Source: an uncultured Paenibacillaceae bacterium (GTDB lineage Bacteria; Bacillota; Bacilli; Paenibacillales; K13). From it: DNA of 64,000 bases. Position 1 is the first letter of the stretch. Each line of letters starts with the position of its first letter. The stretch is from NCBI GenBank assembly GCA_913056365.1, contig CAJXLT010000012.1, positions 1 through 64,000 of the forward strand, given 5' to 3'. The translations under genes and the position numbers were made by a program. Below the pieces are notes generated by a model. It made no database searches and was not told where the DNA came from. It saw only the letters and a list, made by a program, of their open reading frames with translations. Below are positions 15,107 to 48,326 of this stretch, piece after piece.

Positions 15107-15301
15107 ACTTGTAGCGGATCGCTTTTGTTTTCATAATCAGCCAGGAAGGGCATGTTAATCAGAATGAGATGAAGATTGGACTATAGGTGTGTTTTTTTCG
15201 CAGACAGTGTGGTTTTCTTAAGTAATTGTGGATGTGCGGCTATGTTCGACATGGGATTGTCTTATAATGAGGCATAACGAATGGAGAAGGGATGAGTGGC
15301 C

Positions 15302-16294
15302 ATGACAACACGAAGGATGGACAAGGTTTTGGTAACGGTGCAGTACCCGCCGCATCATTTCGATAGGATGAGCAAGGTGTTCGCCCCGGCAGAGCTGTTA
15401 GTCGTTGACAAGCATGATGATGAAGCGATGCAAGCTGCACTAGAGGTTGCGGATGCAGCGGTAATCGAAGGTGATTTGGATGAGCGCTTCTGGCAGGCGC
15501 CCAAGATGAAGTGGGTGCATTGTGACCACGCCGGACTGAATGGATCGGCCCGCCCTGAAGTATTCGAGCGAGGGCTGCTCGTCACAGGCTCCTCTGGGCG
15601 TTCTGCTCCAGTGCTTGCTGAACACGTTATGCTGTTCGCGCTGCTTCATGTATACCAATATGCGAATTTCTATGAAGCGCAGAAGAAGCATCAGTGGGGT
15701 GTGCCCGGCTATGAACAGCTACGCGGCTTGTATGGGAAGACGATGGGCATCATCGGTCTTGGCCATACTGGCAAGGAGCTAGCTGTGCGCGCCAGCGCAT
15801 TCGGCATGCGAGTGCTGGGTTACCGGCATAGTGCCGGTTCTCCGCCGCCGAGTGTTGATCAGCTGTATAGCGCTGCGGCTGGCGATTCGCTGGATACACT
15901 GCTGCAGGAGAGCGACATTGTAGCGTTGGCGGTTCCGCTCAGTGACGATACGCACCACCTGATCGGGGAGAAGGAATTGCAGCTGATGAAGCCGACCGCC
16001 TGTTTGATTAATATGGCGCGCGGTGCTGTAGTGGATGAAGCAGCCTTGGTGAAGGCGCTGCATGACGGGGAAATCGGCGGCGCCGGGCTCGACACCTTCG
16101 TCCAAGAGCCGATGCCTGCGGACGACCCGCTGTGGGATGCGCCGAACACGTATATTACGCCGCATTGCACGCCTGCGGTGCCGGATCGGATCGGGCGCTC
16201 GCTCGATGTCATCTGCGAGAATGCTGTACGCTTCCGCGAAGGGCGCGAGCTGCTGAACCTGCTGCGCAAGGAGCAGATGTACACGAAGGGCTGA
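15302..16294 (+). CDS. D-isomer-specific 2-hydroxyacid dehydrogenase
   Basis: 330-residue NAD(P)-dependent dehydrogenase. The Rossmann domain inserted in the middle carries GIIGLGHTGKELA (GxGxxG). Catalytic residues of the family are visible: Arg in NMARGAVVDE, Glu in LDTFVQEPMP and His in YITPHCTPA. This set belongs to D-lactate/glyoxylate/phosphoglycerate dehydrogenase relatives; the absence of an ACT domain argues against SerA. The start could be ATG 15302 or GTG 15296; AGAAGGG lies upstream, and a TATAAT at 15263-15268 is a possible -10 box. A terminator follows at 16343. Confidence 0.88.
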   Translation: MTTRRMDKVLVTVQYPPHHFDRMSKVFAPAELLVVDKHDDEAMQAALEVADAAVIEGDLDERFWQAPKMKWVHCDHAGLNGSARPEVFERGLLVTGSSGRSAPVLAEHVMLFALLHVYQYANFYEAQKKHQWGVPGYEQLRGLYGKTMGIIGLGHTGKELAVRASAFGMRVLGYRHSAGSPPPSVDQLYSAAAGDSLDTLLQESDIVALAVPLSDDTHHLIGEKELQLMKPTACLINMARGAVVDEAALVKALHDGEIGGAGLDTFVQEPMPADDPLWDAPNTYITPHCTPAVPDRIGRSLDVICENAVRFREGRELLNLLRKEQMYTKG

Positions 16295-16420: not shown

Positions 16421-16609
16421 TCTAACGGAAATCAGAGCCGCTTACAGCCCGTTTTTTGACCAATTGGAATTCTAACGGAAATCTTGCACCCTTAGCGCCG
16501 CTCAGTAGAAGAATTCAACCGCTTTGCTAGTAAATAAGGACCGCTGGCTTCCGTTAGAATGGAAATCTCATCGAAAATGACCTGTAAGCGCCTTAAGTTT
16601 CCGTTAGAA
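16421..16609. repeat. Four-copy TCTAACGGAAAT intergenic element, locus 1
   Basis: TCTAACGGAAAT occurs forward at 16421 and 16471 and reversed (TTCCGTTAGAA) at 16549 and TTTCCGTTAGAA at 16598. The two forward copies are 50 bp apart, as are the two reverse copies, so the whole 190-bp element is an inverted array. The same layout recurs at 48135-48326. No ORF fits. Together with the tandem repeat at 16634 it fills the gene-free stretch 16375-16883. Confidence 0.85.
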
Positions 16610-16633: not shown

Positions 16634-16821
16634 CGTACATGGGCAAGAGTCGATGTGGTCAGGAGTATCGGCTAGTTCCACGTACATGGGCAAGAGTCGA
16701 TGTGGTCAGGAGTATCGGCAACTTCCACGTACATGGGCAAGAGTCAATGCCGTCAGAAGTATTGGCTACTTCCACGTACATAGGTTAGAATCGATATAGT
16801 CAGGAGCATTGACAGCCTCCG
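16634..16821. repeat. Four tandem copies of a 47-bp repeat
   Basis: Units start at 16634, 16681, 16728 and 16775 with CGTACATGGGCAAGAGTC, exactly 47 bp apart. Units 1 and 2 are nearly identical, unit 3 has several changes and unit 4 is the most diverged, as expected for an old tandem duplication decaying from the downstream end. It ends about 60 bp before the cysP promoter. 47 is not a multiple of three and no frame is open. Confidence 0.9.
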
Positions 16822-16981: not shown

Positions 16982-18064
16982 ATGACCTATCTGGTTATAG
17001 CGGTTGCGTTGTTTTTTGCTATGAATATTGGTGCTAGCGGTGCCGCAGCCACGATGGGCGTAGCTTATGGGAGCGGAGCGCTGAAGCGCAAGCGTACTGC
17101 ATTGATTCTCGTCGCGATAGGTGTGTTTCTCGGTGCATACTTGGGCGGCGGTGAAGTCGTGAAGACATTGGGGTCGGGCATCATTCCGACTGATCTGCTA
17201 TCGGTTTCCATTGTGTTGATTATACTGATCGGAGCAACAGGGACGTTGTTCCTTGCGAATATGCTGGGCATTCCTTTATCTACGAGTGAGGTAACGGTCG
17301 GATCAGTTGTCGGTGTGGGCGTAGCGTACCAGGTGCTGTATGTCGACAGCCTGCTAGTGATCGTAGCTTTCTGGCTGATCATACCGGTGCTGGCCTTCGG
17401 CATTGCATGGAGTGTAGGGCATTGGATTCGCCGATTGGAGAGGCGCGATGCCCGCTGGCGGGGGCAGGGCAGTCGCGGGTGGCAGAGGATGCTTGTGCTG
17501 CTAGTAATCGGAGCAGGCTTCGTGGAAGCATTCTCTGCGGGGATGAATAACGTGGCGAATGCAATCGGACCGCTCGTAGGGGCGGGCATGATGAGTACCG
17601 GCAATGGGATATTGTGGGGCGGCTTGTTCGTCGCATTGGGTGCCTTGCTGTTAGGTGGTCGTGTGCTGGAGACGAACGGGAAGAAGATTACGCAGATGTC
17701 CCTGCTTCAAGGCACAGCTGTCTCAAGTACAGGCGGATTTCTCGTCATTGTGGCTTCGTTGTTCGGCATTCCTGTTCCATTGACACAAGTAACAACATCA
17801 GCCATTCTAGGCATCGGCTCGGTTAATCATGGTGTAGATATGTGGCAAAAAGGTATTGTGCTGAAAATATTGAAGGTGTGGCTCGTTTCACCGCTATTGT
17901 CGCTTGTTGTTTCCTTCTCCTTAGTGAAGATCTTCGTCGAACCAGAGCCTTATCAAGTTATCGTGATGACGGCAGGCTTGCTCTCACTGATCGGTCTGAA
18001 GAGCTTGTATGACAGCGCACAAGCGGAGAAGCGTGCGACACATGAGGAAGGCGGAGGGATTTGA
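16982..18064 (+). CDS. cysP: CysP-type sulfate permease (PiT family)
   Basis: 360-residue membrane transporter of the inorganic phosphate transporter superfamily. Two repeated half-domains are visible: FFAMNIGASGAAATMGVAYG at the N terminus and FSAGMNNVANAIGPLVGAGM in the second half. The first signature has GASG where phosphate carriers have NDAAN; this matches the B. subtilis sulfate permease CysP rather than PitA-type phosphate transporters. About ten transmembrane helices with a central hydrophilic loop (RRLERRDARWRGQGSRG). GGGTGGAG precedes ATG. No sulfate-assimilation genes adjoin it here, so a phosphate transporter cannot be fully excluded. Confidence 0.8.
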   Translation: MTYLVIAVALFFAMNIGASGAAATMGVAYGSGALKRKRTALILVAIGVFLGAYLGGGEVVKTLGSGIIPTDLLSVSIVLIILIGATGTLFLANMLGIPLSTSEVTVGSVVGVGVAYQVLYVDSLLVIVAFWLIIPVLAFGIAWSVGHWIRRLERRDARWRGQGSRGWQRMLVLLVIGAGFVEAFSAGMNNVANAIGPLVGAGMMSTGNGILWGGLFVALGALLLGGRVLETNGKKITQMSLLQGTAVSSTGGFLVIVASLFGIPVPLTQVTTSAILGIGSVNHGVDMWQKGIVLKILKVWLVSPLLSLVVSFSLVKIFVEPEPYQVIVMTAGLLSLIGLKSLYDSAQAEKRATHEEGGGI

Positions 18065-48134: not shown

Positions 48135-48326
48135 TCTAACGGAAATAGGAGGACACTATTGCGCCGAATTAGGGGTGTGACGAGCTCTAACGGAAATAGA
48201 AGCAGCTTATTCAGTAAGATTTAGGCTGAACGGATAGGATATGGCTGTCTAAGAGTTTCTCATTTCCGATAAAAATAGAAATCGAAAGAAAAACAGGCGA
48301 TTAGATGCCTCTCAGTTCCGTTAGAA
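48135..48326. repeat. Four-copy TCTAACGGAAAT intergenic element, locus 2
   Basis: Forward TCTAACGGAAAT at 48135 and 48186 (51 bp apart); reverse copies at about 48263 (degenerate, TTTCCGATAAAAA) and 48316 (TTCCGTTAGAA), 53 bp apart. The overall layout matches 16421-16609. The DNA between copies is not conserved. Nothing else is recognised in the gene-free stretch 47958-48467 except the leader of the next gene. Confidence 0.8.

Follow-up and report, generated by a model that had tools for sequence, protein, structure and literature searches.

The best-described case of short chromosomal repeats tied to one dedicated protein is the REPIN/RAYT system, in which REP doublets (REPINs) occur with REP-associated tyrosine transposases (RAYTs) (PMC3116915, PMC8049555). 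The element studied here, found in a 64-kb window (the whole stretch of DNA that was analyzed, 64,000 nucleotides, belonging to contig 12 of its source genome), resembles this system in several respects: it consists of short palindromic units in inverted pairs scattered through extragenic DNA, each repeat class has its own chromosomal protein gene nearby, there are several classes per genome, and the four-box elements flank the protein gene of their class. In the open-access literature (which leaves out subscription journals), we found no description of such an element in Paenibacillus and nothing that combines DUF559, a winged helix and repeats.

Anatomy of the element and its copies in the source genome

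A preliminary description of the window had claimed a four-copy inverted array without convergent flanking genes. The array, with two forward and two reverse boxes, is indeed present there and at a second locus, and the genes next to the first locus are arranged in tandem, both on the forward strand (Table 1). With two mismatches allowed, single copies of the 12-mer TCTAACGGAAAT are common by chance (3.6 expected); their arrangement, however, is not a chance product. A blind scan of the 64-kb window for any 8-mer in ++-- order with 50/75/50 geometry (maximum score 32) recovered both loci, with scores of 32 and 31, plus one weak match (27). The feature in the window is certainly a true member of a large four-box family.

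It had also been claimed that only the motif and its spacing are shared between the loci. The common part is in fact longer than the 12-mer, comprising approximately 22 bp per box (TAACGGAA....SAG.GRC.CTTA), and the spacers carry a pattern that is weakly conserved between copies. Each box comprises invariant TAACGGAA, a middle of variable sequence and a mirror half that is degenerate (..CGTTA or ..CGCTTA), and in some families the box is a near-perfect palindrome (e.g., TAACGGACACGGATGTCCGTTA and TAGTGATCAATCTTGATCACTA). The consensus of the outer boxes differs from that of the inner boxes, and the two arms mirror each other.

Table 1. Features of the two four-box loci, their surroundings and the partner gene (window positions unless a contig is named)
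Feature	Position	Strand	Remarks
Four-box element, first locus	16421..16608	none	box starts 50/76/50 apart, ++--
12-mer copy 1, first locus	16421-16432	+	exact match to TCTAACGGAAAT
12-mer copy 2, first locus	16471-16482	+	exact match to TCTAACGGAAAT
12-mer copy 3, first locus	16547-16558	-	2 mismatches vs TCTAACGGAAAT
12-mer copy 4, first locus	16597-16608	-	1 mismatch vs TCTAACGGAAAT
Box 1 (outer)	16423..16444	+	TAACGGAAATCAGAGCCGCTTA
Box 2 (inner)	16473..16494	+	
Box 3 (inner, reverse)	16535..16556	-	
Box 4 (outer, reverse)	16585..16606	-	
Four-box element, second locus	48135..48325	none	spacing 51/76/52
12-mers, second locus	48135, 48186, 48262, 48314	+, +, -, -	third with 2 mismatches, fourth with 1 mismatch
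D-isomer 2-hydroxyacid dehydrogenase	15296..16294	+	upstream neighbor of first element, context only
PHO4 phosphate transporter	16982..18064	+	downstream neighbor of first element, context only
47-bp tandem array, 3.7 copies	16634..16806	none	begins 25 bp beyond first element's edge
Partner gene (L048/L255)	G000 contig 6:99594-100298		lies between two elements

The 4.65-Mb source genome (G000) contains approximately 26 full copies (extracted elements). Genome-wide spacing and orientation, which the preliminary description had named as a check, proved nearly constant, with ++-- order and 50/75-76/50 spacing in nearly all copies and one-base variation. The three-box pattern TAACGGAA-N40-44-TAACGGAA-N64-70-TTCCGTTA gave 39 matches across the genome, a number exceeding the element count because each element can match on both strands, while the reversed control gave 0. 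All copies lie between genes, in 18 tandem, 7 convergent, 1 divergent and 2 undetermined settings when two partial elements are included.

Several unusual loci were also observed in this genome. At the end of contig 22, boxes 1 and 2 are intact and the inner arm is interrupted by unrelated sequence, probably due to insertion of a repeated IS (L059:1660-1744). On C11, four direct TAACGGAA-like boxes on one strand with 32/37/32 spacing form an arrangement unlike that of the family (L053:1488-1600), and on C1 the left arm of an element has six forward boxes with a 50-52 bp period, which looks like unit-by-unit expansion (L034:1268-1660). A cobalamin riboswitch is located approximately 130 bp from one element (L046:1805-2006, reverse strand).

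Distribution of the elements

Exact three-box signatures with TAACGGAA were detected in 45 of 392 genomes and 17 of 49 genera of the order (up to 70 matches per genome), and those with TAACGGAC in 86 of 392 genomes and 20 of 49 genera (up to 229 matches per genome); reversed controls gave 0 throughout this search for both boxes. The distribution is patchy, ranging from 0 to more than 100 matches among related genomes. Named hosts of the TAACGGAA form include Paenibacillus, Cohnella, Saccharibacillus, Gordonibacillus and Ammoniphilus. One Pirellulaceae MAG (contig JASMLW010000099.1, L151) has a lone three-box match, the only one outside Bacillota, which is likely due to chance or contamination. 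No match to the box pattern was found in viral contigs.

Among 91 elements from other genomes, arm spacing is exactly 50 in 156 of 182 arms and the center is exactly 75 in 80 of 91 elements. Across several genomes, 153 of 155 elements are intergenic; the adjoining genes are tandem at 71, convergent at 47 and divergent at 16 (p = 1e-4 for convergent against divergent). Several whole elements occur in tandem or close succession, with steps of, e.g., ~233 to 326 bp, in Paenibacillus phocaensis (L187, L200) and Paenibacillus sp. GM2 (L145, L153). The four-box family can account for much of the intergenic repeat DNA of Paenibacillus genomes.

A nuclease-like partner protein

Clustering of the proteins encoded next to elements yielded a single recurrent unknown protein, a family of approximately 230 residues, whose gene is flanked by two elements in the source genome and likewise in the sister genome. 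The clade serving the TAACGGAA box has no match in Pfam, NCBIfam or PADLOC and only sub-significant matches in PHROG. However, distant paralogues in the same genome (L284, L286, L287, L288) exceed the DUF559 (PF04480) cutoff over the N-terminal domain and also have winged-helix matches, and the TAACGGAA clade is connected to them by homology and not by a direct profile match. Alignment of the family reveals invariant D82, E95 and H102 and a C-terminal winged helix-turn-helix (wHTH) domain; the three residues are consistent with a PD-(D/E)XK site, and the protein is a predicted nuclease on this basis. The AlphaFold model of the nuclease domain is poor (mean pLDDT 50), reflecting an alignment that is too shallow, and a PDB sequence search with the partner protein returned generic winged helices only. 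Seven members are present in the source genome. Across the order, 293 of 392 genomes encode the family, which has weaker matches in some other Bacilli as well. A RAYT or other Y1 transposase as the mobilizer was ruled out, as Y1_Tnp is absent from the source genome, in which control profiles were detected.

A nuclease fold with fast-changing specificity, present as multiple paralogues per genome, could also belong to a defense or self-recognition system that uses the boxes as labels of self DNA or as a means of restricting DNA with rival boxes. The genes are chromosomal, and the protein has no match in phage records and one weak match in plasmids, which would fit such a role. This interpretation is nevertheless highly improbable: besides the missing PADLOC match, the elements have no recurrent defense-gene neighbors, and there is no obvious target because viral contigs lack the box pattern.

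Linkage of genes and elements and a recognition code

We examined 122 family genes scoring above 300 bits and found a four-box element within 450 bp of 108 of them at score 27 and of 100 at score 28, against a background of one false match (score 27) per 64 kb and none in 20 shuffled loci. These elements are located downstream in 113 cases and upstream in 28 (p = 3e-13). Their boxes vary by clade and include TAACGGAA, TAACGGAC, TAACGAAC/T/A, TAACGCTT, TAACGGTT and others. Of 20 loci outside the order, 5 again show approximately 50/75/50 geometry at a score of at least 29, with other boxes. A strong protein match was obtained for 69 of the 76 genomes that have five or more element matches and for 114 of the remaining 316 (Fisher p = 5e-19; genome sets assembled by hand from the element and protein searches). 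Some genomes (G110, G136, G074 and others) have elements and no close protein.

At least three protein-box families coexist in the source genome, namely TAACGGAA with L255, TAACGGAC with L283 (adjoined by one of the TAACGGAC elements) and TAGTGATC with L285, the last having elements at four places, one of them near this paralogue (control 0). The recognition helix, [TS]-[DE]-R-[HY]-A-R-x, varies together with the box. When box base 6 is G, helix position 4 is Arg in 68 of 76 cases, and when it is A or C, this position is Gln, Pro, Thr or Ser in 21 of 21 (G/not-G vs Arg/not-Arg, 68:8 / 0:21, p = 4e-15). Similarly, C at base 8 accompanies Arg at helix position 8 in 58 of 61 cases, and with other bases this residue is not Arg in 29 of 36 (C/not-C vs Arg/not-Arg, 58:3 / 7:29, p = 7e-15). 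Pairing of Arg with G and of Gln with A is what would be expected of helix-DNA contacts in general. On a helix-masked tree, the box bases changed only 4 and 11 times. None of the independent pairs with support (3 and 7) runs in the opposite direction, all being either concordant or neutral, but their numbers are too small for significance.

At genes with the helix DRHARN or VRHARN (L256, L257, L169, L171), the downstream element has TAACGGAA boxes and the upstream one TAACGGAC boxes; the encoded protein is possibly of dual specificity or transitional.

The fixed geometry, the cognate wHTH gene beside elements and the covariation of helix and box support the previous suggestion that the array binds a protein. 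Judging from these sequence patterns, the element is very probably bound by the wHTH protein that is encoded beside other copies.

A function through RNA structure is the alternative that the preliminary description had proposed alongside protein binding. In one such scenario, the transcript would fold as one long double hairpin acting as a terminator, attenuator or mRNA stabilizer. Folded as single sequences, the first locus gives a strong z of -5.45 and the second a weaker one of -2.31, and elements are biased to gene 3' ends. However, RNAalifold detected no compensatory changes between the arms in 25 natural copies (covariation term +0.12), and the RNA hairpin was rejected despite its strong single-sequence fold. 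At variable positions, boxes 1/4 and 2/3 of the same element are no more complementary than boxes of different elements, and opposing boxes sometimes fall below chance (z down to -2.9). Rfam gave no match to the element; it returned only the cobalamin riboswitch in the vicinity of one copy and a match below threshold that is due to chance. Considering that helix/box covariation points to reading of DNA, a structured RNA is extremely unlikely, and the RNA part of the earlier proposal finds no support.

Mobility and retention

In other genomes, the whole element is dispersed among unrelated flanks, with copies 75-95% identical across approximately 190 bp in G110, G071 and G380, and with whole elements or larger units 75-97% identical in G110, G071 and G064. 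Four-box modules in G064 and G223 are included in larger MITE-like units that have their own terminal inverted repeats (TIRs) and putative target duplications of 6 bp and approximately 10 bp. These are two unrelated units (L289-L293 in G064 and L294-L300 in G223), each carrying a TAACGGAC module as cargo, with GAGGYTGTCGATTCATTGTG and CAATGTTGTCAGG as terminal inverted repeats. Because either the whole element of ~190 bp or a larger MITE has been dispersed, the family is or was mobile, and the module spreads alone or as cargo. The previous statement that the array is not a decaying transposon therefore holds only in part: spacers diverge around conserved boxes, yet the element or its carrier MITE has been dispersed elsewhere.

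Such dispersal, together with the TIRs and putative target-site duplications (TSDs) of the MITE-borne copies, could also be explained if the element were an ordinary MITE, i.e., derived by internal deletion from a conventional IS whose transposase binds the boxes. Against this, no cargo-bearing autonomous long version occurs among 91 full elements (in a search needing three close boxes and thus biased against long versions), and at the 91 loci, where the search favored complete elements, no terminal inverted repeats in common with an autonomous transposon were detected and no transposase recurs as a neighbor. The dispersed copies examined showed no obvious TSD and no excision junction where the 190-bp element is bare. 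Moreover, the internal length is constant across genera, conservation is limited to the boxes, and the recurrent neighbor is the DUF559-wHTH gene and not an IS transposase. An ordinary MITE is therefore unlikely and has a small probability in our judgment, though whole-element dispersal does occur.

Ten elements share neighborhoods with the sister genome G001, for several of which a single flank confirms this. At these loci, identity is 44% for flanking DNA, 53% for spacers and 71% for boxes, and in nine shared pairs compared with unrelated pairs it is 0.61 vs 0.46 at variable box positions and 0.48 vs 0.37 in spacers. These values suggest that boxes at fixed sites are under purifying selection, in a test that is partly circular because the elements were found through their intact boxes. 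With the same reservation, box retention hints at a host-level role instead of pure selfishness.

The boxes that seem to be kept while spacers and flanks diverge are one reason to consider a regulatory or chromosome-organizing site of the host, for which the wHTH protein would be an autoregulated DNA-bridging or transcription factor with a nuclease fold that is inactive or used for dimerization, and the elements would be its regulon or domain anchors. The rigid four-site symmetry and the almost exclusively intergenic location with avoidance of divergent promoters would also be expected. However, a host site accounts poorly for the downstream bias of gene-adjacent elements, the patchy distribution among related genomes, the many paralogues each with its own box, whole-element dispersal and the conserved nuclease residues, and we consider it doubtful.

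Tandem arrays begin at element edges on 13 of 50 sides in the source genome versus 87 of 1116 control intergenic points, on 5 of 38 versus 17 of 843 in the sister genome and on 17 of 222 versus 226 of 4995 elsewhere, the control points being not independent of each other. The 47-bp array beside the first element (Table 1) is one example, and arrays of a similar kind border many other copies. This enrichment fits, indirectly, breakage and repair at the element edge.

Proposed mechanism and comparison with known systems

The explanation that we favor, with a probability of roughly 0.6 for the statement as a whole, is that the nuclease-wHTH protein and the four-box element form a REPIN/RAYT-like pair with nuclease-driven dispersal. 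The element would be the cognate four-site DNA target of the sequence-specific nuclease-like protein encoded on contig 6 (Table 1). One wHTH dimer would probably occupy each imperfectly palindromic box of ~22 bp, with the recognition helix reading TAACGG-A-A/C, and four boxes with center spacing of approximately 50/62/50 bp would give a two-fold symmetric complex. The nuclease would probably nick or cut at the element edge, and subsequent repair would copy or duplicate the element and adjoining DNA. In this way, a vertically inherited chromosomal gene would be flanked by, and serve, a population of short dispersed elements. Geometry, dispersal, gene linkage and helix/box covariation support the mechanism, within which we infer binding, dimers, cutting, copying and hence mobilization.

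More generally, the paired elements and nuclease-like genes suggest an undescribed self-spreading or genome-marking system. There is an even chance that they represent an undescribed class of intragenomic replicators in Paenibacillales and some other Bacilli, in which each DUF559-like nuclease/wHTH protein is paired with a rigid four-box element whose sequence is clade-specific, the amino-acid/base recognition code is readable, and a genome contains several independent pairs. Since the fixed geometry and box-specific helices provide many natural protein/site pairs, binding specificity and any cutting are predictable and could be tested.

Several known systems share features with this pair. MITEs are likewise small, gene-free and dispersed with inverted ends, whereas the bare four-box element has no detected parent transposon or TSD, keeps its internal four-box geometry across genera and is linked to a non-transposase gene. 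Enterobacterial BIME/REP sequences are also composite intergenic arrays of small palindromes with a preference for gene 3' ends; however, BIMEs are composed of alternating REPs, in contrast to the ++-- order at fixed 50/75/50, and the protein partner is different. With DUF559/Vsr-like PD-(D/E)XK nucleases (PF04480), the family has in common the N-terminal domain (above the cutoff in distant paralogues) and the D, ExX, H pattern, but it differs in its C-terminal wHTH fusion, its own DNA element and the lack of a Pfam/NCBIfam match for the TAACGGAA clade. TnsA of Tn7 is a PD-(D/E)XK and wHTH protein as well, and multi-site transposon ends carry several protein sites per end; by contrast, no TnsB/TnsC neighbors were seen beside the partner genes, and the four-box elements have no cargo.

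REPIN/RAYT differs in that its protein is an HUH/Y1 transposase, replaced here by a DUF559-like nuclease with a wHTH domain, and in that a REPIN is one hairpin pair, whereas the present element has four boxes in ++-- order at rigid spacing without conserved hairpin pairing. With an unrelated protein and a different architecture, the four-box pair is not a member of REPIN/RAYT. If the proposed mechanism is true, it would be a second, unrelated solution to the problem of short repeats living with one dedicated chromosomal protein, and the persistence of such sequence populations would become testable by comparison with REPIN/RAYT.
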